Part shown: positions 2,827-54,115 of the stretch, piece by piece
How positions within the stretch are numbered: position 1 is the first letter of the stretch
Layout: each line of letters starts with the position of its first letter
From: Nitrospirales bacterium
GTDB lineage: Bacteria > Nitrospirota > Nitrospiria > Nitrospirales > UBA8639
Direction of reading: 5' to 3'
NCBI GenBank assembly: GCA_031315865.1
Contig: JALDRJ010000002.1
Coordinates: 3,508,001 to 3,572,000 of the forward strand
DNA: 64,000 nt
Notes under the pieces: model-generated
The model's database searches: none
Told to the model about the DNA's origin: nothing
Seen by the model: only the letters and a program-made list of their open reading frames with translations
Program-made: the position numbers and the translations under genes

Positions 2827-5800
2827 TTAATCCTGCGCTGGTCTCTGACAGACCAGCGCAGTTCCGTCCGAAGGGCTCACATTCAAACGACCCCAGGCTC
2901 CTCCGGCAAAAATCTGAGCCGGACCGTCCCGATAGATGTAACATCCCTCCTTGGCTCCTCCCTCAAGGGTTGCGTTTATGGCTTTTCCAGCCGACATGAT
3001 GGCGGAATGAGGTGACCCAAATTGTGGAATAAAATCGTGGTAGTCATGCCCTCCTGTTAAAAACGCTCGTTGACGAGCCCGCCCATGAGGTTGAACGACT
3101 CGAAACCGCACTTCTTCTCCGGCTTTGGCTTGAAAAGTAGGAGTAGGGATTGAGCTCCATGATTCTTGGAAAAAGTTATTGGGGTAGATCACATGATTCA
3201 GATTCGACCCCGGGCCAGTATCCTGGGTCACCAGGGCACCATCCTCATCTACAACCTTCCCCTGACGCAAGCGAGCCCAGAACGGAGCGGAGCGATAGTT
3301 GATTCCTTTTTCTCCACGATCGTAGGAGTCATCGCAAATCGGACAATTATCGATCGAAACTTCATGTGTTTGTCCGGTAGGAAGCGGGTTCCCATTTTCA
3401 TCCCAGGGAGCATTCCAATGCAGATTCAATCCATCCTGATACATAACCACAAATTCCTGAAACTCCTTCTCCAGTTTGTTCTCATCAATATATTGAATGA
3501 CCGCCCGCGTCCCCAGTTCCCATCCAGCTTTTTCCATTCGCGAGACCGGGTCCACGTACTTCGCCCCTTGCGGCTCCACAATCAAGGTCCCCAAAAGCCC
3601 ATGCACACCATGGCCAATCACATCGCCAAAGGCTTTGATCGGCACGACCCCAAAGGCATAAGGCTTGGGTGTGAGGTTGTAATCACAATCCCCCTCATCA
3701 GGACAATCGGGAGCGCCATGCGGTTTTTCATTTGCAGGCTCAAGGTCCATAAGTCCGGCATACAAGAACATCTTTTGTCTTGTCAACGAGGGATCGACAT
3801 CTCGATTGATTCCGATACCGATATTATGGTCCGTCGCTGTCTCGCCGTATAACATAGGAATCGATAAGGCTAAACGCGTCGAAGATTGAACGTCGTCGAC
3901 ATCCGATTCACTCTCGCCACGCCGATCCACGTTTAACGGTACAATTTTCGGCATGAGCGCATCCCCAGATTGATCTGGTAGCGCCTTTTGATTCGTCCTT
4001 TCCTCCTCACTCAAGAGCAGATTATGCACCGTCAGTTTCAGGCAATCGCCAGCATTCACTCTCAGCACCAGCGGTTCAAGCTCCCCCGCTTTTGCTTGAT
4101 TTCCATAACGGGCCTTCACGCTTTCAAGAGTCACATTATTGTCTCCCGGCGGCATGGCCAGCAGAATGAGACCATCCGGATCGAACAACCCTTGACCCGC
4201 GTCATAGGGTTGAACTCCATTGAGCGTTAAAAGATTTAAGCGAGTTGCCGCCACATGATACGTCACTAGATGAGAACCACTCGGACACCTTTCTTGTGCT
4301 TCATCATTAAATATGTCTTTTTTATTCGCTATTCTGATTTTTCCCGTGCCATGCTCGGTCAGGAGGTTGAGCCTCTCACCGATATGCTCACAAAAGTCTT
4401 CTATATTTCGATCGTCAGAGGGTAGTTTGAAAAGGTTGCGCTTATACCACCAGATATCGGCGGCCTCGCTGATCTTCTCTAGCGTTTGGAAATCGACCCG
4501 TGGTTCCCGTTTTTGGCAGCTTTGTGGATCCCAAGCCTCTTTTCCATTATAGATCCGTATCAACCCCCAGGCTCCATTCCACAGCGCATCCACCGTCCCA
4601 AAATGATAGAGGTAATCATGGGCCGGGGCCCCCCTGCGAACATTTTGAAAAGGGGGTAAATCCATCTCGAAATGTTCCGAAATGCCGATCTCCTGGGAAG
4701 AGACCAAAAGCTTTGCGTTATCTTGTTTTGCCAATTGTTCATCAGAAATTTTCTTGTCCACTTCATAATCAATGACTCGTGGCCACGAGAGCCCCTCGAT
4801 GGCAAACATGTGCTGGACTTCTTGAGCGCCCTGGACCATTCGGATCTGAATCTTTTCTCCTTCATAGGCTTCGAGAATCGGGGTACAGGGATCTCCATGC
4901 TCTCGCGTCGCAAAGACAAAGGCCAAGTCTCCTTCTTTCCCGGACCGTTGGCGCTTGACACTTTTTCGTTTTTCGGTCTCAGGGATGTAGCCGTTTTCAT
5001 CACGCTTCAGTGCGCTTTGTCCGCATCCGGTTTCCTCGGGCACCTGCAGATCTCCCTCCATTTTTCCAATTCGTAATGGGAGGGCTTCGTGTTTATAGTT
5101 CACCAAATAGGGGTTATGATGATCCTTTGATATGGCCTCCGGCTTAAAGGGTGGATCAACCGGACGGCCGTGACGCCTCCACCATTCGTTCACATAGGTG
5201 TCCAGTCGTTGAACCGCTTCATCAGAGATTTCCTGCACCACTCCGTTTTCCGCTTTCGCTTCGATCAAGAGTCGTCCCATCCCCTGTTCCGTTAGTGATC
5301 CCTCCTCCTCCACCCTCGGATCATAGAGGAGGGCGAAATCTGCCACCGCCAGAGCAAACTCCCGGTGATTTTCATGGGTAAGCCAATCGTCTGCTTCGAC
5401 GATCATGGCTTTTGAGCCCACGGCTTGCCCTTGTGCATCCGCAAGGGGTGTCCCATCTGGTTTGAGCCACTTAGTTCCAGCCGGTTCAACCAGGAGTGCG
5501 GAATAAAATCCATGCTGTTGAATAGAGGAGGGGGCGAAATGATCGTGCGTAAACACGGTCCGTAATGTTCGATCACGACACTCTGACTCGGGATTATCGG
5601 CACAGGGAAACGAAGGCAGTTCAATGTCGGGCATATTCGACATGGACATATGTTTTATGCCCTCCGCCCGAACGGTGAGAAGGGGGTCGGCAAACCATCG
5701 TTGAATAGTGGTCTGATAGATTCCCACATCATGACCCTCCAGATCTTTACCCAGGGCCAGGTTCCTTCTAACACCATTCACTTCGGCACCCCCAAAAGCA

Positions 5801-8589
5801 TTGGCCGCATGAATGCGTTCCTCTACAGCATCTGCCGCTAGCGTTCCATCTTCGTAGTTGAACCCGTTCGCCGACCCATCTGAAGAGGTCACATCGAACT
5901 TTACGAGATGAATATGTTGGCCGATGATATCGGTAGGCGTTGCAACCTGAAAATCATCGAGTTGCAGTTCTTTATGAATGCGGTTTTGGTGACGAAATTC
6001 AATGCACTCCCCAGATGCCGCACGGAAGAAGAACGGTTCTTGATCGTTCCGGACGGTATGTTCGATGTCGTCAGCCTCCTTGGTCAATACATTGATTCGG
6101 GCCTGAGGATCATGCCACCCGGCTCGATTCACAATTAGATCCAGTTCGACGGCCGATACCTCATACCGACGGTGACCATTCATGGCCGGATCCTGCACAA
6201 ATCCGCCTTCCCCGGTAAAGGGATCAAATCCTGGTTTCCCGGCAAAGGCTGGTGCACCACAGGGATCAGCAAACGGCGCCCCAGGCTTCGGGGCCGTGCC
6301 ATTGACAAAAAGCCTTCCGGGATCTCCATCTTTAGGATCTTTTGAGGGATACCCTGGCCGTTCTGGATCCTTTGTGACCACGCTTCCATCGGCCAAGCGG
6401 ATAGCCGGTGCTTGGCCAGCATGAAATTGCATGGCGGCTTTCTCCAATGGTGTCCCATCACTTGGCAACACCTGGATATCGGCTTTGACCAATTCTTCAC
6501 GGAAATCCCCGGTGGCCAAGGCATACCGCAATAATTCGTTCGGTGTCTTGGCTTTAGGGTCTAATTTGTCGAATTCCTCTTTGGTCATGAAGGACGGCCG
6601 TCGCTCTCCGTTCCCAAACACATGGCGGGGCAGTCCTCCATGGAGCACATGGCCATCGGAATTTTTTGCGAAATCCAGTGGAGGTTGTGGTGCGCGATGA
6701 CCTGGTTTACCCGGAATATAAAACGGATAACCCGGCATACCATCCTCCTGCGCATAGAGCGGAAGAGGCGGCAAAGCCTGGCCCGGCAGGGGTAACACAG
6801 CAGGAATAGGCGTCCCACCATGCCGATTGGTATCTGTTAGGCCGGTCAAGGGTTCTGTTCCCAGCCGAGGCCCTCCAGTCGAGTCAACGAAGCCCCCAGA
6901 CAGCGCGATTCTGGCATTCGTAAAAAGATGCATGTTGGCCTGCCCATCAGGTAGCTTGCGGGTCCCATCCTCGATCACATCATGCACACGCCAGAGGGCC
7001 CACATTCCTTGGGCGAAATGCGGATACAAATGACAGTGAAAGATCGAGTCACCTGGAGCCCGATTGCGATTGCCACTCCCGTTCGATAAATACCATCCCC
7101 CGTTGCCCCACCGTAATAAGCCTCCGTCATAAATTTCATAAGAAAACCCCTGTTGAGGGGCAATGGTTTGCGAGTCGAGATAGGTTCCAGAATTCGTATC
7201 GGCGGAAGATAGCCATTGATGGGCATGCAGGTGGAACACATGGGTTTCTTTGGGACCAGCGTGCAGATTCCTAAATTGCACACGATCATTCAGATAGGAA
7301 TGAAACACATTGGAAGGATCATCCTGAAAGTTCTCCAACAGAGCAGGATCTCCGTTGGCCCATGACTGGAGAAAAAACTCTTCATAAAGACATTCTTTAC
7401 ATTCGGTCGCAGGGCCAATTCCTTTGCGATTTGCCAACAAAATGGATCCCATTCCACTTGAGCCGTAGTTCACCGCGAATCCATCTCGCACACCGGAAAG
7501 CTGCCGGCTCTCCTCCAATTCTTGGAAGTCGTCGGCATAAAAGGTCTTTAACTCATCATGAAAGATGGCGGTGAATTCCCGAAATGACGGGGGAGCCTCA
7601 GGATTCTTGAGAACGGATTCAACCACTACGGCATGGAGATCCCCATGAACCAACTCATAGCGATTCCCGCCCTGATGCTGAAGCATATTCAGATATGGAA
7701 TGCCTGTCTCATCTACCGCTTCGTAATCCAACTCCCCCAATCGAGCATGTTGGATGTTGGGTTGCAGTTTCCACGCCTTATCCAAAATTTCTGACGTCAC
7801 TTGGCTCCGGTACCAACGACTCCCTTTTGGCTCTACAATCACAGCCCCAAACAAGCCGTGCGTGAGACTTCCTCCATCACCTTCACCACCAGCTGGCGCA
7901 CCATGGCTGGAAAAGAGATGCGTCCCTGATCGCTCCAGACGCCATCGACAAGTCACCGACTCCCCCGGGGCAAGTGACTCGAGGCCGTTACATCTTGGAT
8001 CATTTCGTGATAGGGATGTGAGGCCCACAATCATAAGATTGGCTGTTCGTGTCTTGGGCCAATCATTAAACCCAGTATCCTTTCCTTGAGTTACGCCTTG
8101 ATCTATCCGTTCTTCATGCTCAGGAGGGTCAATGGAAGGAAGCGTATCTTCCTTTTTGACAAGGTGCCCATAAGGGGAACCGCCATCAACCTCTGTGCAT
8201 TCTCGTTTCATATCCGGCTGCTTATCAAGCAGCCGATTGGTAAAGGCTATCTCAAGAATATCCCCAACATTACCGCGTAGAACAAGCGGACGTGGACGTT
8301 TTCCATCCCGCAAACGGACTTCTGATAGACAACGCAGCCCCGGGAGCCATTCCTCTCCTGTGCGAACTTTCACCACATCCCTGTCGAGCGCATAGATCAT
8401 GCCATATGGATTGACCGATCCGAATCGATTGTAATAGAGGGGATGATCCAACGCCGCCACGTCCGCATGGATAATACGACCGGCTTGAGGAAAAGGAGAA
8501 TGGATGGTCGTACATGCGGGAACAGCCAATATCACTCCCAGAGCACCTAAACACAAGATCTTTTCTGTCATCCGATTTAGCATTTGCAT
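2827..8589 (-). CDS. giant multi-domain multicopper oxidase (MnxG-like), probable lipoprotein
   Basis: 1,920 residues, about three to four times a normal three-domain multicopper oxidase. The N-terminus has a signal sequence ending VPAC, a plausible lipobox (Pro at -2 is unusual). Copper-motif candidates in order: HLFSSH near 222; HVFHLHAHQW near 450; the type-1 set FHCHLYPHFAQGM near 520, with Cys and axial Met; FRHQNRIHKE near 863; GQHIHLVKFDVTSSDGS near 888; FTHDHFAP near 1010; VQHMFAIEGL near 1255; YHFGTVDALWNGAWG near 1324; GHDYHDF near 1846. Repeated GxxGxLIVEP-like cupredoxin edges suggest many cupredoxin domains. Large oxidases of this kind include bacterial Mn(II) oxidases; here the substrate (Mn, Cu, Fe or other) is not shown. 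AAAGGGG precedes the ATG, and a second in-frame ATG at 8583 is possible. It is co-transcribed with the gene 12 bp upstream. Confidence 0.88.
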   Translation of the reverse strand: MQMLNRMTEKILCLGALGVILAVPACTTIHSPFPQAGRIIHADVAALDHPLYYNRFGSVNPYGMIYALDRDVVKVRTGEEWLPGLRCLSEVRLRDGKRPRPLVLRGNVGDILEIAFTNRLLDKQPDMKRECTEVDGGSPYGHLVKKEDTLPSIDPPEHEERIDQGVTQGKDTGFNDWPKTRTANLMIVGLTSLSRNDPRCNGLESLAPGESVTCRWRLERSGTHLFSSHGAPAGGEGDGGSLTHGLFGAVIVEPKGSRWYRSQVTSEILDKAWKLQPNIQHARLGELDYEAVDETGIPYLNMLQHQGGNRYELVHGDLHAVVVESVLKNPEAPPSFREFTAIFHDELKTFYADDFQELEESRQLSGVRDGFAVNYGSSGMGSILLANRKGIGPATECKECLYEEFFLQSWANGDPALLENFQDDPSNVFHSYLNDRVQFRNLHAGPKETHVFHLHAHQWLSSADTNSGTYLDSQTIAPQQGFSYEIYDGGLLRWGNGGWYLSNGSGNRNRAPGDSIFHCHLYPHFAQGMWALWRVHDVIEDGTRKLPDGQANMHLFTNARIALSGGFVDSTGGPRLGTEPLTGLTDTNRHGGTPIPAVLPLPGQALPPLPLYAQEDGMPGYPFYIPGKPGHRAPQPPLDFAKNSDGHVLHGGLPRHVFGNGERRPSFMTKEEFDKLDPKAKTPNELLRYALATGDFREELVKADIQVLPSDGTPLEKAAMQFHAGQAPAIRLADGSVVTKDPERPGYPSKDPKDGDPGRLFVNGTAPKPGAPFADPCGAPAFAGKPGFDPFTGEGGFVQDPAMNGHRRYEVSAVELDLIVNRAGWHDPQARINVLTKEADDIEHTVRNDQEPFFFRAASGECIEFRHQNRIHKELQLDDFQVATPTDIIGQHIHLVKFDVTSSDGSANGFNYEDGTLAADAVEERIHAANAFGGAEVNGVRRNLALGKDLEGHDVGIYQTTIQRWFADPLLTVRAEGIKHMSMSNMPDIELPSFPCADNPESECRDRTLRTVFTHDHFAPSSIQQHGFYSALLVEPAGTKWLKPDGTPLADAQGQAVGSKAMIVEADDWLTHENHREFALAVADFALLYDPRVEEEGSLTEQGMGRLLIEAKAENGVVQEISDEAVQRLDTYVNEWWRRHGRPVDPPFKPEAISKDHHNPYLVNYKHEALPLRIGKMEGDLQVPEETGCGQSALKRDENGYIPETEKRKSVKRQRSGKEGDLAFVFATREHGDPCTPILEAYEGEKIQIRMVQGAQEVQHMFAIEGLSWPRVIDYEVDKKISDEQLAKQDNAKLLVSSQEIGISEHFEMDLPPFQNVRRGAPAHDYLYHFGTVDALWNGAWGLIRIYNGKEAWDPQSCQKREPRVDFQTLEKISEAADIWWYKRNLFKLPSDDRNIEDFCEHIGERLNLLTEHGTGKIRIANKKDIFNDEAQERCPSGSHLVTYHVAATRLNLLTLNGVQPYDAGQGLFDPDGLILLAMPPGDNNVTLESVKARYGNQAKAGELEPLVLRVNAGDCLKLTVHNLLLSEEERTNQKALPDQSGDALMPKIVPLNVDRRGESESDVDDVQSSTRLALSIPMLYGETATDHNIGIGINRDVDPSLTRQKMFLYAGLMDLEPANEKPHGAPDCPDEGDCDYNLTPKPYAFGVVPIKAFGDVIGHGVHGLLGTLIVEPQGAKYVDPVSRMEKAGWELGTRAVIQYIDENKLEKEFQEFVVMYQDGLNLHWNAPWDENGNPLPTGQTHEVSIDNCPICDDSYDRGEKGINYRSAPFWARLRQGKVVDEDGALVTQDTGPGSNLNHVIYPNNFFQESWSSIPTPTFQAKAGEEVRFRVVQPHGRARQRAFLTGGHDYHDFIPQFGSPHSAIMSAGKAINATLEGGAKEGCYIYRDGPAQIFAGGAWGRLNVSPSDGTALVCQRPAQD
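2833..2861 (-). other. 12-bp perfect hairpin at the 3' end of the multicopper oxidase gene
   Basis: CTGCGCTGGTCT (2833-2844) and AGACCAGCGCAG (2850-2861) are exact reverse complements with a 5-nt loop. They overlap the last codons of the oxidase frame. No T-run follows on the minus strand, so it is more likely an mRNA 3'-end stabiliser than an intrinsic terminator. Confidence 0.5.
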
Positions 8590-31124: not shown

Positions 31125-31378
31125 TAAAAAAGTCCCCGTCCCCGCTTACCGAATGAAAACGCATCGACAGCGGCGATAATGGCAAATTGAATGTAAATCC
31201 ATGTCGCGACATGCCAATAAAACTTCCCGATGACAATCATGATAATCGAGGAAGCGATAAACCAATACCCTCGACGTTCCTCCCCAAGGTAAAGATGCCC
31301 TAACCCTGCAATCACCGACAGGGTCGCGGCTCCGACGCCATACCAGGTCTTCTCACGTTCATTGTCAAGGTTAGCCAT
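31124..31378 (-). CDS. small membrane protein
   Basis: 84 residues with three likely membrane segments (GAATLSVIAGLGHLYLGE, YWFIASSIIMIVIGKFYW, VATWIYIQFAIIAAVDAF). The GxGHLYLGE followed by basic residues resembles TM2-domain proteins. AGGGGAAGC precedes the ATG. One-base overlap with the following exported-protein gene points to coupled expression. Function unknown. Confidence 0.78.
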   Translation of the reverse strand: MANLDNEREKTWYGVGAATLSVIAGLGHLYLGEERRGYWFIASSIIMIVIGKFYWHVATWIYIQFAIIAAVDAFSFGKRGRGLF

Positions 31379-37843: not shown

Positions 37844-38464
37844 TTAAGGTGGGTTTGTGACGATTTTCGCCAAGCGCAAGAGTTTGGAACTGACGACTAA
37901 ATCCCTGGCCTTGATGACCTCTGGATTGATCGCAAAACGAAATTTTTGCATTTCAAGGAAAAATTGAATCATACCCCCACTGTGTAAAAAACCGTCAGTT
38001 TCTCCGACGGTCAGAATGGCTTCGGTCCCCAACAACTGACGGATGTGTGACCACTGCGAGCTATAGCCTTGGTCAAAAAAAATCAGATGACAACCTTGAA
38101 CATTCTTGGGGGACGGATTACGAACGGTCAAAAATGAGTGGCCACCTTGTGTTTTCCCTTGAATCATCTGTTCGAAGATATCCGAAAAATAATCGGGCGC
38201 CATCAGGCAAATACGCATGGGCTCAGTGTTATCGGACAGTTTGGAGGAGGGCCATTGCAAAAATTGAGTGAAATGGTACAGGAAAGAGGCTTTGATTTCT
38301 AACTCCAGAGGCCGGGCCGCATAGGCACTCACGGTCATCGAGGAGCTAATGAACACCAAGCTCAGCCCTAAGCATACCAGCCCACGACAGGCCATGCTTC
38401 GTACAGTCGATGAACAGTGAAAGAGAAGAGAGAGCCGTCCCATCAGAATAGATGCCGAATACAT
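37844..38464 (-). CDS. YfiR-family periplasmic protein (DUF4154), copy A
   Basis: 206 residues. Signal peptide region CRGLVCLGLSLVFISSSMTVSAYA, then the DUF4154 pattern: ELEIKASFLYHFTQFLQWPSSK, MRICLMAPDYFSDIFEQMIQGKT, GCHLIFFDQGYSSQW, ILTVGETDGFLHSGGMIQFFLEMQKFRFAINPEVIKARDLVVSSKLLRLAKIV. In Pseudomonas YfiR represses a membrane diguanylate cyclase, YfiN. No cyclase gene is adjacent. A near-identical copy of the same length lies at 40982-41602. Confidence 0.9.
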   Translation of the reverse strand: MYSASILMGRLSLLFHCSSTVRSMACRGLVCLGLSLVFISSSMTVSAYAARPLELEIKASFLYHFTQFLQWPSSKLSDNTEPMRICLMAPDYFSDIFEQMIQGKTQGGHSFLTVRNPSPKNVQGCHLIFFDQGYSSQWSHIRQLLGTEAILTVGETDGFLHSGGMIQFFLEMQKFRFAINPEVIKARDLVVSSKLLRLAKIVTNPP

Positions 38465-38589: not shown

Positions 38590-40620
38590 CTAAAACCCCC
38601 AAGTGATTTTCCCATATACGCTTCTCTGAATTTCTGTCGACTGTGTTTGGAGGAATGAAGATTGAAATTCAGGATGATGATTATCGAATAAGTTTTTCCC
38701 CACCAAAGAAAGCTCGAGACCGGGCATCGGTTTCCATCCCAGACGAAGATCCAACGCCACGTAGGCTCCAATCGGTTGCGCCGTCAAATTATCGACGATT
38801 CGTACCCATGAATCGAATTCGACCTGGCCCGGAAAATTCATTAACGATCGAATCGAGCCTTGATGCTTGGGAGTGAGCCCCATCGTTTGGTCTTTGGCGT
38901 TCCCTGCCGGTCCATCGACATCGATGTCAATGTACGAATACGCGAGGCGTAGTTTCCACCAGTCTTGAAGAGGCAAGTCAGCCGCCACTTCCACTCCCCA
39001 GGTTTGGGCTTGAAGATTATTCGTGATCTCAGACGTAGGCGGGAAAAAACTCACAACCTGTCCCCCACGGAGATGATGATAGAAATTATAAAATCCCGTA
39101 AGGTCAAAGAAAACGCCCCCATCAGAAAAACGATATCCGAGTTCATAGGACAGAAGGGTTTCCGACTTAAACCCCTTTTGTCCTCTTACGACCGCCGGAA
39201 AAGCCACGTTGGCACTTGGGGGAATAAGGATCTGAGAGTTTTGTTCGAACCGAGACGGAATCCGAACGGCACGAGACACGGCTCCCCAGAAGCTATGAAC
39301 ATGAGAAGGCGTAAACAGGATTCGCCCACTGGGCTGATATTCGAATCCCGTGAAGGGATTGTGTGAAATCTTCGTACCCACATTGATCGAAAATGTGTTT
39401 GGAATAAGATACACTTCATCCTGTAGGAATCCGCTAACTAAATGTAACGTTTTAGAGGCGGGGTAGGTGGAAGCACTAATCGTATTCTGAAAATCATCAT
39501 TCCATAATCGATATTCCAGGCCCCAGATGATGTCATGTGATGACAGGAACGGAAACTGATGTTGGAAATCTGCGTTGAAGGCATCGATCGTGGTTTTGAC
39601 CGCCCGCTCTTCCCGTTCAAAATGATCATAAAATAGCTGGAAAACCATGTTTGAATGATACCCGAGGTCGCGCTTCCAGTTTCCGAGAAAATGCCCTCCC
39701 TTGAGATCAATATCCTCCTGGACCGGGGTGAATGCGTACGGGAAATTGGGAGATGTCGCCACAAGGTTTTGCTGCCCGGCTTTCCCCTGATAAAGTTCTC
39801 CTTCGAACATAAAGGCATTCTGCCCCAGGGGTGCCCAGTCGGCCCGAAAGCCTCCTCGGAACATGCGCGTATCATCATGTGCGCCGGATTGGTTAAATTG
39901 CGTGTCCCGGCTCCAATACTTGCCGAATAAACGATACTGCAACGTGTGGTCCGAATGTCCGCCATACCGCATAGCGAGAATATCTTCTTCACTCCCGGCA
40001 AGGCCACTGAGTAATGCTCCTTGAGTATCACGAGAATGTTTGGTGATAATATTGATGACACCATTCATTGCATTCACTCCCCACAGCGTTCCAGCTGGGC
40101 CACGGGATATTTCGATACGTTCGATGTCTTCCAGCATCGTATCCTGAATTTCCCAGGTGACCCCCGTAAACAAAGAATTGTAGACCGGTCGGCCGTCGAG
40201 CAAAACCAGCAATTTATTCGCAAATCGATCATTAAACCCTCGTATGCTGACAGCCCACTGATTATTGTTAATGCGTCCAACCTGGACTCCGGGCGCCATA
40301 CGAAGGGCTTCCGGAATACTCGTCACACCAGATCTCCGTATATCTTCATGGGTAATGACATACACAGCCGCAGTGGTTTGGACGAGTTTTTGTTGTTTCT
40401 TGCCGAGGGAGGTGACTTGAATTTCCATGAGCTCTTCAAGGCTCAGTGTCGTGAGGTCCAGGTCTCCGGCGTCATCAATCGATTCAGCCCGTGCCAGATT
40501 GAAGGGGTTGCCGCCATCGACAAGAGTGATGGAAATTGAACCGCTTAGAAAGAACGCGAGGCAAATCCCGATCGTTCTCCACGAGAAAAATCTCACCGAC
40601 TGACTCCATGCTTTCATCAT
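38590..40620 (-). CDS. TonB-dependent outer-membrane receptor
   Basis: 676 residues. Signal peptide near residues 10-45. A TonB-box-like and linker stretch (LTTLSLEELMEIQVTSLGKK) leads into a plug domain: VYVITHEDIRRSGVTSIPEALRMAPGVQV, SIRGFNDRFANKLLVLLDGRPVYN, IERIEISRGPAGTLWGVNAMNGVINIIT. A 22-strand-type barrel follows, ending in GKITWGF with the usual terminal Phe. The ligand is unknown. It is flanked by two YfiR copies on the same strand, a pairing that suggests a surface-signalling unit rather than plain siderophore uptake. Confidence 0.93.
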   Translation of the reverse strand: MMKAWSQSVRFFSWRTIGICLAFFLSGSISITLVDGGNPFNLARAESIDDAGDLDLTTLSLEELMEIQVTSLGKKQQKLVQTTAAVYVITHEDIRRSGVTSIPEALRMAPGVQVGRINNNQWAVSIRGFNDRFANKLLVLLDGRPVYNSLFTGVTWEIQDTMLEDIERIEISRGPAGTLWGVNAMNGVINIITKHSRDTQGALLSGLAGSEEDILAMRYGGHSDHTLQYRLFGKYWSRDTQFNQSGAHDDTRMFRGGFRADWAPLGQNAFMFEGELYQGKAGQQNLVATSPNFPYAFTPVQEDIDLKGGHFLGNWKRDLGYHSNMVFQLFYDHFEREERAVKTTIDAFNADFQHQFPFLSSHDIIWGLEYRLWNDDFQNTISASTYPASKTLHLVSGFLQDEVYLIPNTFSINVGTKISHNPFTGFEYQPSGRILFTPSHVHSFWGAVSRAVRIPSRFEQNSQILIPPSANVAFPAVVRGQKGFKSETLLSYELGYRFSDGGVFFDLTGFYNFYHHLRGGQVVSFFPPTSEITNNLQAQTWGVEVAADLPLQDWWKLRLAYSYIDIDVDGPAGNAKDQTMGLTPKHQGSIRSLMNFPGQVEFDSWVRIVDNLTAQPIGAYVALDLRLGWKPMPGLELSLVGKNLFDNHHPEFQSSFLQTQSTEIQRSVYGKITWGF

Positions 40621-40981: not shown

Positions 40982-41602
40982 TCAAGGTGGAACCGTGACG
41001 ATTTTTGCCACACGCAAGAGTTTGGAACTGATGACTAAATCCTTAGCCTTGATGACGTCTGGATTGATCGCAAAACGAAACTTTTTCATTTCAAGGAAAA
41101 ACTGAATCATGCCCCCACTGTGCAAAAAGCCGTCAGCTTCACCAACGGTCAGAATGGCTTCAGTCCCCAACAGATGGCGAATGCGTGACCACCGCGAGCT
41201 ATGGCCATGCTCAAAAAAGATCAGATGACAATCCTGGACATTCTTGGAGGACGGGTTACGAACGATCAAAAGAGGATGGGCCCCTCGTGTTTTCCCTTGG
41301 ATGAGCTGTTCGAAGATATCCGAAAAGTAATCTTGCGCCATCAGGCAAATGCGGATGGGCTCAGCATTGCCGGACAATTTGGAAGAAGGCCAACGCAAAA
41401 ATTGAGTGAGATGGTACAGGAAAGAAGCTTTCATTTTTAACTCTAGAGATGGAGACTCATAGGCACGTAAGATCGTCGGGGAACTGATGAACATGATGCT
41501 CAGCCCAAAGCATACCAACACTCGGCAGACCCCGATTCGTCCAGCCGAGAAACAGTGAAGGAAAAGAGAGAGCCGTGTCATCAAGTTCGATACGGAATAC
41601 AT
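40982..41602 (-). CDS. YfiR-family periplasmic protein (DUF4154), copy B
   Basis: 206 residues, exactly the length of copy A and aligned with it without gaps. Same signal peptide layout (CRVLVCFGLSIMFISSPTILRAYE) and same domain (ELKMKASFLYHLTQFLRWPSSK, ILTVGEADGFLHSGGMIQFFLEMKKFRFAINPDVIKAKDLVISSKLLRVAKIV). Most differences are conservative or silent, so both copies look functional. Read in transcription order the genes are yfiR-B, receptor, yfiR-A. Confidence 0.9.
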   Translation of the reverse strand: MYSVSNLMTRLSLFLHCFSAGRIGVCRVLVCFGLSIMFISSPTILRAYESPSLELKMKASFLYHLTQFLRWPSSKLSGNAEPIRICLMAQDYFSDIFEQLIQGKTRGAHPLLIVRNPSSKNVQDCHLIFFEHGHSSRWSRIRHLLGTEAILTVGEADGFLHSGGMIQFFLEMKKFRFAINPDVIKAKDLVISSKLLRVAKIVTVPP

Positions 41603-46284: not shown

Positions 46285-47199
46285 TCACTCCTTGTCAGGA
46301 AGCGCCCCATGAGGCACAGATGGTCGAGAAGACGCAGGTTTTTTCTTGGAACGTTTTGAGGTAGAGGATCCCTTGTGAAGCGAGGTCTTGTGAGCATCAG
46401 GTGGGGCAACCTCAAAATCTTGAAGACCCACTCGTAATTTCCTCAATGCTTCGGCATGCACTCGGCATACGCCGGATTCGGTTAATCCTAATTGCACGCC
46501 GATTTCTTTCATGGTCAGGCCTTGAAAGTAATATTTCTGCACCACATCCTGTTGACGACCAGACAAATTTTCCATGGCCTGCTCAAGCACGTGATTCGTC
46601 TCCGAGGACAAACACAGAGCATAGGGATCTAATTGGTCTTCATCCGGCACCAGGTCTCTGAGCGTAAACGCCTCGTCCTGAGAACCCATTGAATCATCCA
46701 GGCTCAACAGACGCGTATGGTCTGCTGAAGAAGCATCGAGTTCTTCTTGTGTGACCCCCAACAGTTCGGCGATTTCCGCTCGCGTGGGAAGTCGCCCTTC
46801 TCTTTGAACGAACTCCGTGCTGACTTGTCGTATTTGATCATTTCGCGTCCGAACAGAACGAGGAATCCAATCCATCGAGCGCATTTCGTCGAGCATCATC
46901 CCTCGGATACGATACTCTGCGAACGTCCAGAACTTCGTCGCTCTCCCCGGATCATAACGCGTCATTGCACCGAGCAGTCCGATCACACCTGCGCTCGTTA
47001 AATCTTCAATGTCTAGTGAAGAAGGATTTCTTGCCGCAAGACTTCCGGCAATCCGTCGAATCATCGGAAAAAACTCTTTTAAGATTTCGGCCGGATTAGA
47101 TGGGGTGTGAGAAGCACATGCTGACGTCGCTGCCTCAATCAACTCTCGTGAGAGCACGATCCCATCTTCACGCTCCGGCCGTTGGGTTTGTTCGTTCAT
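46285..47199 (-). CDS. RNA polymerase sigma factor, FliA/sigma-28-like
   Basis: 304 residues from the ATG of MNEQTQRPE, with GGAGA upstream; an upstream extension of the frame runs through the leader hairpin and is not credible. Region 2 is DLTSAGVIGLLGAMTRYDP with FWTFAEYRIRGMMLDEMRSMDWIPRSVR, which is very FliA-like. Region 3 (LPTRAEIAELLGV) and region 4 (LTMKEIGVQLGLTESGVCRVHAEALRKLR) follow, then a basic tail. It lies behind a c-di-GMP-I riboswitch with terminator, so its expression should respond to c-di-GMP. No flagellar gene is in the window; the regulon could be motility or another surface function. Confidence 0.92.
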   Translation of the reverse strand: MNEQTQRPEREDGIVLSRELIEAATSACASHTPSNPAEILKEFFPMIRRIAGSLAARNPSSLDIEDLTSAGVIGLLGAMTRYDPGRATKFWTFAEYRIRGMMLDEMRSMDWIPRSVRTRNDQIRQVSTEFVQREGRLPTRAEIAELLGVTQEELDASSADHTRLLSLDDSMGSQDEAFTLRDLVPDEDQLDPYALCLSSETNHVLEQAMENLSGRQQDVVQKYYFQGLTMKEIGVQLGLTESGVCRVHAEALRKLRVGLQDFEVAPPDAHKTSLHKGSSTSKRSKKKPASSRPSVPHGALPDKE

Positions 47200-47253
47200 G
47201 CTCGTCTCCTGAGTTGAAGTTTTCGCGCGACCGCACTCCCTCGCGTTGCCAAA

Positions 47254-47286
47254 TAAAAAAGCGCCCACCGTGATGGATGGACGCTT
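47254..47286 (-). terminator. intrinsic terminator in the riboswitch leader
   Basis: On the minus strand, AGCG-T-CCATCC pairs with GGTGG-G-CGCT (47261-47285), followed by six T residues at 47255-47260. It lies between the aptamer and the sigma-factor start, the position of an expression platform. Confidence 0.8.
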
Positions 47287-47314
47287 TGTTTGCCGCCTAG
47301 ACTGTGACGAAGGA

Positions 47315-47415
47315 CAGTTTGGCAACCAGACAAACCTGCTGGATCTTTCTCTCTCCCAACCAGGTCTCTTGGCTTTGCGTCCTATCCTTACGGATAGTTT
47401 GCCTTTTCAACTGGC
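47315..47415 (-). promoter_or_regulatory. c-di-GMP-I (GEMM-I) riboswitch aptamer
   Basis: Minus-strand sequence carries the GEMM-I landmarks in order: GGCAAAC, a P2 hairpin TATCC-GTAA-GGATA with a GNRA loop (47383-47396), the highly conserved GGACGCAAAGCC (47371-47382), a P3 arm opened by ACCTGG and closed by CCAGCAGGT (the latter near 47333-47342), then GGTTGCC and the closing CAAACTG that pairs with CAGTTG at the 5' side. A terminator follows 29 nt downstream and then the sigma-factor gene. In addition, GTTGCCAAA at 47318-47326 is exactly complementary to TTTGGCAAC just past the T-run (47245-47253), a possible alternative pairing. The assignment is from memory of the consensus and is strong. 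Confidence 0.88.
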
Positions 47416-47652
47416 ATAGGGACGTTCCCCGGTTAACCGCGGGAACGATCCCCTGGACGTGAACGTTCACGCACACGTCGCCGTATCATCTTTACAGATA
47501 CTTCGGGAGAAATGAGGGAAAAGTTAAGTCTGCGGCAGCTGCAAGAAGATCACGCATTGACACGAATTGAATAGTACGACCAGGTAACGAGAGGAAGAAG
47601 ACACGAACGAGGCAGCGATTGTTTCAACCGGCCAGGAAAAACTCGAGAAGGA

Positions 47653-51160: not shown

Positions 51161-54115
51161 ATGAATGATTGGATGCTAACAGCACGGTACTGGAATGCAG
51201 ATAAATTTCTCAGGCCACTCACCATAGAAGGTCAGGGCGAGGATTGGGGAGCTGGTTCTAGCGACGAAGAACTCCCTCCAGCTCCAACCAACGTCCAAGC
51301 CAAACCTGACAATGGTCGCATCACGATCTCTTGGGACTCAGTTCCAAACGCTTTGTATTATAACCTCCATTTCATGACGACAAAGGGTGTCTCTGTGAAG
51401 CCCAATGACGTTCATCGGCCAATCGCTAGCCAAGATGATTTTAATCCCATTATCGGGATAAAAAAAGACGGTGCCAATACAATCGAAGGGGCTATGAGTC
51501 CTTACGTTCATGACGATTTATCGAATAACTTGTGCTACCACTACGTGGTGACAGCCATTACGGCCGAAGGTGAAAGCCTAGAGTCGGAAGAAGTGATGTC
51601 GATTCCTTCTCCGTACCTCAACGTCATGCAGTTTGGCGTCGAGGGTATGGATGATGGCGAATTCAATTCGCCAACAGGCATCGCAGTCGACCATGATGGG
51701 AATATCTATGTCTCCGACACCGATAATCATTCGGTGCAAAAGTTCGATAAAGAAGGCAAATTTATCGCACGATGGGGCGATGAGCCAGACTCTGAAGAAG
51801 GCAAGTTTTACTATCCTCGAGGATTAGCCACCTCTCCCGATGGCGTCTTATACATCGCTGACAGTGGTAACAATCGCGTACAAAAGTTTGATTTAGACGG
51901 CAACCTGATCAATGCCTGGGGAAAATTTGGTTTCGCATGGCGCGGGGCAGAAGCGGGGAAATTTGATGTTCCCTGGGGAATCGCGACAGATCAACAAGGA
52001 TTTTTATACGTCTCTGACACCAGTAATGCAAGAATTCAAAAGTTCCAGGCTGATGGAACTCCGCTGCTGAAATGGGGACGTGATGGAGGATATGACGGAG
52101 CCATGTTTTATCCGAGGGGAATCGCCGTCGATTTCATCGGTAATATTTATGTGGCAGACGAAGGCAATAATCGCATACAAAAATTTGACGCTAGGGGGAA
52201 CTTCCTCCTCAAGTGGGGAAAAGAGGGAAATGGTCTCGGGCAATTCAAATCACCCTGGGGACTGGCGTGTGACCCCCTCGGAAACGTGTATGTCGTCGAT
52301 AGCGGTAATCACCGAGTTCAAAAATTTGACTCAAACGGCACATTCCTCTGCTCATGGGGAAATCGCGGGTTGACAGAAGGACAATTGAACTTCCCTTCTG
52401 GCATTGCCATCGACAGAGAAGGGTATGTGTATGTCATCGATAGCGGAAATCATAGACTGACAAAATTCGCTCCAACCGAAGAAGAAATCAACAGAGGCAA
52501 AGAGCAATCGCAAACACCTCAACGGGCTACCGACCTTTCCACTCCCTCAAGCATGGCAGTGAAAGCCGGAGACACCGAAAACATCATCAGCTGGCTGGAA
52601 GTCCCAACCGCGGTAAGTTACAACTTGTATTTCAGCACAGATTCTGGCGTCACCACGCAAAATTCGACTAAAATTGAGGGTGTCACGACCCCCTATACAC
52701 ATCTTGGGCTCACCAACAATACAACGTACTATTATACGCTGAGCGCCGTCACCGAAGATGAACGAGAAAGCGAACTTTCTGAAGAATATTCAGCTACACC
52801 ATCCTTAATTGACGTCACAGCCCCTCAAAATCCTGATATTGTCTTGAACCACGGGGCCTACATGACCAATTCGCCAGATCTTGTCGCAACGATCTCGGCA
52901 AAAGACGTTGATACCGGTGTTTCAGCCTATTTCATCTCTGAAAACCCCATGACTCCAAGTGCAACCATGCCGGGATGGGTGGAGGTTGAACCGGAGGAGC
53001 GATTTGGGGCCACCATTCCCTTTACCACATCGGCAGGAGACGGTCCTAAAACAGCTTACGTCTGGTTCAAAGATGTCAATAACAACGTATCGGTGCCTGC
53101 GAGCGCAACCATCTTACTCAATACTTCAGGGTATGTGTGCGTCGCTAATTGGGGAAAACCAGGACGTGGAGCCTCACTCCTTCACGGTGGAGAATTTATT
53201 AGCCCGCTATATGGCATGGCCATTGATCGCCAAGGATCTGTTTTTGTCGTTGATAATGGGAATAACCGCATTCAAAAATTTGAACGCAACGGGAACTTTA
53301 TCCTCTTATGGGGGAATTTTGGCGCGGCCAACGGCAGCTTCAATAATCCAACCGGGATTGCATGTGATGCGAAAGGCGATGTGTATGTCGCGGACACGAA
53401 CAATCATCGCATCCAAAAGTTCGACGGAAAGCTTGGGCACTATATCATGAAATTTGGGACACGAGGTAGCGGGGAAGGTCAGCTCAATTCACCGTGGGGT
53501 GTTGCCGTTGACCGAGTTCGAGGCTATATTTATGTCGTGGATAGCGCAAATTTCCGCATACAAAAATTTGATGAAACAGGCGAATTCATCATGCAATGGG
53601 GTAGCTTTGGAAACAACGACGGTCAGTTTTATTTCGCGAGAGGCATTGCCGTTGATCAAAATGATGGCACCGTCTATATCGTCGATATGGGAAATCATCG
53701 CATTCAAAAGTTTGATACGAGCACGAATGTCCTCCCTCAACTACTCACAAAATGGGGAGGAGGCATCGGCGCGGGTCATGCCAGCAGCACACAGGCCCAA
53801 GAGCCCGGACAATTCCGTTCTCCCTGGGGCATTGCAGTCGATGAAGTTGGCGATGTATACGTTAGCGATACAGGAAATCAACGAATTCAAAAATTCGACC
53901 GTGATGGGAATTTCATCACTCAATGGGGTGGATTCGGGAATGCAGAGGGACAATTCAATTTTCCCTACGGCATTTCTCTCGACAATCACGGTGGCGTCTT
54001 TGTCGTAGACAGTGGAAACATGCGGGTTCAACAGTTCATGCCGGCAGGAGAAGCTGAGGAACGATTGAAAGAAGAGGATGCGGTTGGTCTCTTGCCAGGA
54101 CATTCTGAACCTTAA
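51161..54115 (+). CDS. NHL-repeat protein with two six-bladed propellers and FN3 domains
   Basis: 984 residues. Order: a fibronectin-III-like domain (about 40-150), six NHL repeats (about 155-445), a second FN3 (about 455-550), an Ig-like segment (about 550-655), and six more NHL repeats (about 665-970). The repeats follow the form QFxxPxGIAVDxxGNIYVxDxxNxRIQKFDxxGxFLxxWG, so each set of six should close one beta-propeller. No signal peptide or membrane helix is seen, which is odd for a protein of this architecture; it could be exported by a non-classical route or act in the cytoplasm. GAGG precedes the ATG. Function unknown. Confidence 0.9.
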   Translation: MNDWMLTARYWNADKFLRPLTIEGQGEDWGAGSSDEELPPAPTNVQAKPDNGRITISWDSVPNALYYNLHFMTTKGVSVKPNDVHRPIASQDDFNPIIGIKKDGANTIEGAMSPYVHDDLSNNLCYHYVVTAITAEGESLESEEVMSIPSPYLNVMQFGVEGMDDGEFNSPTGIAVDHDGNIYVSDTDNHSVQKFDKEGKFIARWGDEPDSEEGKFYYPRGLATSPDGVLYIADSGNNRVQKFDLDGNLINAWGKFGFAWRGAEAGKFDVPWGIATDQQGFLYVSDTSNARIQKFQADGTPLLKWGRDGGYDGAMFYPRGIAVDFIGNIYVADEGNNRIQKFDARGNFLLKWGKEGNGLGQFKSPWGLACDPLGNVYVVDSGNHRVQKFDSNGTFLCSWGNRGLTEGQLNFPSGIAIDREGYVYVIDSGNHRLTKFAPTEEEINRGKEQSQTPQRATDLSTPSSMAVKAGDTENIISWLEVPTAVSYNLYFSTDSGVTTQNSTKIEGVTTPYTHLGLTNNTTYYYTLSAVTEDERESELSEEYSATPSLIDVTAPQNPDIVLNHGAYMTNSPDLVATISAKDVDTGVSAYFISENPMTPSATMPGWVEVEPEERFGATIPFTTSAGDGPKTAYVWFKDVNNNVSVPASATILLNTSGYVCVANWGKPGRGASLLHGGEFISPLYGMAIDRQGSVFVVDNGNNRIQKFERNGNFILLWGNFGAANGSFNNPTGIACDAKGDVYVADTNNHRIQKFDGKLGHYIMKFGTRGSGEGQLNSPWGVAVDRVRGYIYVVDSANFRIQKFDETGEFIMQWGSFGNNDGQFYFARGIAVDQNDGTVYIVDMGNHRIQKFDTSTNVLPQLLTKWGGGIGAGHASSTQAQEPGQFRSPWGIAVDEVGDVYVSDTGNQRIQKFDRDGNFITQWGGFGNAEGQFNFPYGISLDNHGGVFVVDSGNMRVQQFMPAGEAEERLKEEDAVGLLPGHSEP

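Follow-up and report, generated by a model that had tools for sequence, protein, structure and literature searches.

A candidate c-di-GMP class I riboswitch with an intrinsic terminator precedes a second, non-flagellar FliA-family sigma factor gene in Nitrospirales

The sigma factor gene and its surroundings

The minus strand of the window (the whole 64,000-nucleotide stretch of DNA analysed here) carries a complete gene for a 304-aa sigma factor of the FliA/WhiG family at positions 46285..47199. The protein matched the Pfam models of sigma-70 regions 2, 3 and 4 and scored 208.3 bits against TIGR02479 (FliA_WhiG; cut-off 189.6 bits). This agrees with the preliminary description, which had placed a FliA-type sigma gene on the minus strand behind an aptamer and a terminator, and the unit as a whole is conserved. 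The open reading frame starts with ATG at 47199, preceded by the Shine-Dalgarno sequence AGGAG (47206..47210, minus strand, as read off the sequence). The genes lptF and lptG are located upstream and a convergent gene of a cell-wall hydrolase downstream, and the sigma gene appears to be monocistronic.

A second FliA-family gene of the same genome (L008) has 45% identity to the window sigma gene product and is positioned directly 3' of flhF-like and flhG-like genes, names that are our reading of matches to SRP54-GTPase and ParA-type Pfam families. The window sigma factor, conversely, stayed below the cut-off for flagellar FliA (NF005413, PRK06986; 192.8 vs 201 bits) and is encoded at a non-flagellar location. 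A tree of 44 sequences separated the window-type sigma factors, as one clade with support of 100, from all other FliA proteins, L008 included. The region-2.4 signature RIRG.MLDE.R.MDW.PRS is common to both proteins, while region 4.2 differs (GVCRVH vs RICQLH). Judged by sequence and gene order, the window sigma factor and the flagellar FliA of the flhF-flhG-fliA cluster, which has no riboswitch, are different paralogues. With the sigma factor separate from the flagellar one, the 'motility switch' that had been proposed for this locus is not supported.

In one genus (g9, L092-L108) the sigma gene has its ribosome-binding site within a conserved inverted repeat, GGTC...GACC/GGCC, just after the T-run; perhaps this repeat constitutes a second, translational layer. 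Elsewhere in the window, two YfiR/HmsC-like genes (37844-38464 and 40982-41602, minus strand) flank a gene for a TonB-dependent receptor (38590-40620, minus strand); YfiR proteins in other bacteria control a diguanylate cyclase. The window also contains a 1920-aa open reading frame with no Pfam match at E 0.001 (2827-8589, minus strand) and a gene for a 984-aa protein with 12 NHL beta-propeller repeats (51161-54115, plus strand).

The aptamer, the terminator and the pairing between them

The preliminary description had named a GEMM-I aptamer upstream of the sigma gene and proposed a covariance-model search as a check. We ran this search and the aptamer at 47318..47413 (minus strand) scored 67.0 bits against RF01051 (c-di-GMP class I), compared to a cut-off of 35 bits (E 6e-11); the range 47252-47415 given earlier corresponds to the aptamer together with the terminator. 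The model RF03167 (c-di-GMP-I-GGC), which belongs to the same clan, gave 58.4 bits, just below its cut-off of 59. We saw no difference from RF01051 in sequence or structure; the novelty lies in the controlled gene. In the Rfam alignment, P2 is the hairpin CTATCC-GTAA-GGATAG with a GNRA loop (47382..47397, minus strand), and its length is constant in all orthologues. P1 was assigned by inspection as CAGTT (47413-47409) with AACTG (47319-47315). Folding of partial transcripts gave an alternative hairpin, ACTGT/ACAGT (47301..47318, minus strand), which would take up the 3' strand of P1. By a hand alignment, G47403 and C47322 appear to occupy the ligand-contact positions G20 and C92 (Vc2 numbering) and are candidate contacts. 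The aptamer presumably binds c-di-GMP. Immediately 5' of it, at 47418-47454 (minus strand), there is a stable inverted repeat GGGGATCGTTCCC/GGGGAACGTCCC that was unseen in congeners.

The other four aptamers of the genome precede genes for a secreted Fn3 protein, Flp pilins and two response regulators, which are the usual company of GEMM aptamers. For example, two Flp pilin genes in tandem follow a class I aptamer at a distance of ~0.6 kb in L003 (1501-2687), and similar pilin and Fn3-protein aptamers occur in relatives. At a response-regulator gene, L071, a class I aptamer is followed by a GCGCCC-type terminator; this leader possibly shares the switch design of the sigma leader. A sixth RF01051 match in the genome (window 31171-31218, 19.9 bits) was under the cut-off and was taken as chance.

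Downstream of the sigma-gene aptamer, a terminator scan combined with fold energies identified the intrinsic terminator AAAGCGTCCATC-CATCAC-GGTGGGCGCTTT with a T-run (47255..47287, minus strand). Its hairpin (47287-47258) has 12 pairs and a computed energy of -17.8 kcal/mol; the shuffle z-score was -6.3, and none of 200 shuffles was equally stable. The terminator claimed earlier is therefore well supported, being present also in 21 of 23 relatives. A conserved intrinsic terminator 3' of the aptamer is what one expects of a transcription-terminating riboswitch of the OFF type.

We observed that the 5' arm of the terminator is complementary to the aptamer itself. The arm GCGTCCATCC (47275..47284, minus strand) could form ten pairs with GGAT-a-GGACGC (47377..47387, minus strand), i.e. 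with the 3' strand of P2 and the core of the ligand site, leaving A47383 bulged; as RNA, the duplex of GCGUCCAUCC with GGAU-a-GGACGC has a computed energy of -17.7 kcal/mol. Before the terminator is complete, 5.83 of the 6 core nucleotides in the window leader were predicted to be paired with the arm. When the arm was swapped for each of 122 other terminators and the core pairing recomputed, none of these controls reached that value. Over 22 leaders the mean was 4.18 of 6 nt, compared to 0.44 with control terminators.

In a folding model that has neither tertiary contacts nor ligand, partial transcripts ending before the 3' terminator arm preferred the antiterminator to the aptamer fold by 0.2 to 6.3 kcal/mol in all but one of 22 leaders scored, the exception being L091. 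In complete leaders, L111 excepted, the terminator had the advantage over the antiterminator, by 0.3 to 10.5 kcal/mol, and this advantage grew with longer 5' ends. As computed, the antiterminator and the aptamer are mutually exclusive, another property of OFF-type switches, with the arm/core pairing weak in L105 and absent in L091. The two strands also vary together: four of five congeners combine the core GGACGC with the arm GCGUCC/GCGUUC, and most other leaders combine GGGCGC with GCGCCC. No more than one or two events need lie behind this, the orthologues being from about five genera and not independent.

Conservation of the unit and its promoter candidate

A class I aptamer was found 5' of the sigma gene in 19 of the 20 other intact orthologues of the same family. 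In the named collection, whose relatives (NPIRA01 to NPIRA06, for example) are uncultured Nitrospirales, 23 of 24 orthologues had the aptamer and 21 of those 23 the terminator. By comparison, none of ~54 other FliA genes had the aptamer. The only orthologue that yielded no aptamer, even in a permissive scan, was L109; it retains a FliA-type promoter candidate. In L110 (the same gene as L033) the aptamer is retained and exceeds the RF03167 cut-off, there is no terminator with a T-run, and GCGCCC is still found near the position of the arm. The order lptF-lptG-unit-hydrolase-TPR-thioredoxin-recN was maintained in at least two genera (the small genes being partly typed), and in L102 the riboswitch-sigma unit is at a different location.

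Conservation also pointed to a FliA (sigma-28)-type promoter candidate at 47500..47526 (minus strand), made of TAAC (47526-47523), a 15-nt spacer and a degenerate -10 box, CCCGAAGT (47507-47500). Wherever the sequence upstream of an orthologue reached far enough, we found TAAY-N15-YCCGA or a close variant, at the spacing and position seen in the window and its congeners; a box of this type was present in one of ~54 other FliA loci. A search upstream of the window unit found no sigma-70-type promoter. The conserved box suggests autoregulation or control by FliA; autoregulation is possible, and flagellar FliA could equally use the promoter candidate. The FliA box mapped in Bdellovibrio, TTAAG-N16-CCGATA, is nearly the same (PMC3627812). 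That organism, with its attack-phase FliA regulon, also has a c-di-GMP riboswitch RNA, merRNA; however, merRNA has no downstream gene, and FliA is not reported there as riboswitch-controlled (PMC3627812).

A search of the window's own genome for TAA-N17-CCGATAA gave 15 matches, compared to 8 with a reversed control; among those linked to genes were matches at CheA-, STAS-, FliW- and HDOD-like genes. We did not accept this set as the regulon of the window sigma factor, as it is indistinguishable from a flagellar FliA regulon. The strict pattern TTAAYT-N14-YCCGATAA occurred once per genome in five genomes of genus g9, solely at the sigma gene.

Direction of the switch and its possible role

Taking together what was computed (the aptamer, the terminator, the identity of the sigma factor, the conservation of the unit and the pairing potential), we infer that the class I c-di-GMP riboswitch is probably a transcriptional OFF switch for the second, non-flagellar FliA-family sigma factor. 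A FliA-family sigma factor (the gene's own product or flagellar FliA) would probably recruit RNA polymerase, which would start ~80 nt upstream of the aptamer. With the ligand absent, the 5' arm of the terminator would pair with the 3' strand of P2 and the GGRCGC core; this duplex would open the aptamer and block the terminator, and the sigma gene would be transcribed. With c-di-GMP bound, the core would be held within the aptamer, the terminator would form and transcription would stop. Since the arm/core pairing is incompatible with the folded ligand site as well as with the terminator, the ligand should favour termination. In most leaders the terminator, once complete, wins on stability, and the choice must therefore fall during transcription, which makes OFF a kinetic decision. 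The presence of seven GGDEF domains in the genome also speaks for the OFF reading.

The preliminary description had considered alternative folds plausible because the sequence after the T-run is complementary to part of the aptamer's 3' strand; on this reading that sequence would compete for the 3' strand of P1 and decide the fold. The exact 9-nt complement behind this idea (GTTGCCAAA / TTTGGCAAC) is indeed present in the window, yet the longest match in 21 other leaders was 4 to 7 nt, with no orthologue exceeding 7 nt. Moreover, this pairing cannot decide termination, because the sequence is transcribed only past the stop point. Such a role is extremely improbable, and there is far stronger support for pairing between the terminator 5' arm and the aptamer core. 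The opposite direction, an ON switch in which c-di-GMP prevents the terminator and high c-di-GMP turns the sigma factor on, would suit a surface or sessile programme. In its favour, other GEMM-I aptamers of the genome precede genes for Flp pilins and a secreted Fn3 protein, products one would expect to be wanted at high c-di-GMP, and class I ON switches with terminators are known, such as Bc2 of Bacillus (PMC6366702). In favour of OFF, all seven class I switches that function in C. difficile have this direction (PMC6366702). We found no terminator-blocking pairing compatible with the folded aptamer, and the alternative pairing that is conserved breaks the aptamer up, so we consider an ON switch unlikely. 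It is quite unlikely, too, that a working aptamer is combined with a mostly constitutive attenuator, or with translational or Rho control, the terminator not being the main ligand-controlled element. The aptamer without a T-run in L110 and the thermodynamic preference for the terminator in full leaders would agree with this; the presence of the terminator in most relatives and the complementarity of its arm to the aptamer core argue against it.

Riboswitch control of a FliA-type sigma factor by c-di-GMP is known in principle. In C. difficile, the class I aptamer Cd1 (Cdi-1-3) of the flgB operon likewise acts through transcription termination, as an OFF switch, and controls sigD, gating a FliA-family sigma factor and thereby the SigD regulon (PMC6366702). 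There, sigD is one gene of a 23-kb flagellar operon, whereas the Nitrospirales leader, from a different phylum and behind a FliA-type promoter candidate, precedes a sigma gene that is apparently monocistronic and not part of the flagellar cluster. The parts are known, but a unit in which a riboswitch is dedicated to a sigma gene, conserved across a family of Nitrospirales (marine-type bacteria), appears to be undescribed; a literature search among open-licence papers found none combining a c-di-GMP riboswitch, a sigma factor and Nitrospira. To our knowledge, one C. difficile operon is the main example of a second messenger controlling a sigma regulon directly through RNA, and little is known about lifestyle control in relatives of nitrite oxidisers.

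Across a family of such relatives, a riboswitch is linked to a sigma gene that stands alone, and the OFF reading makes a clear, testable prediction, namely that the sigma gene's transcription is terminated by c-di-GMP. More tentatively, the dedicated non-flagellar sigma factor might transcribe its own gene from the FliA-type promoter candidate, passing the OFF riboswitch in each round; c-di-GMP would then break the positive feedback, and the unit may be a family-wide module that works as a bistable lifestyle switch.
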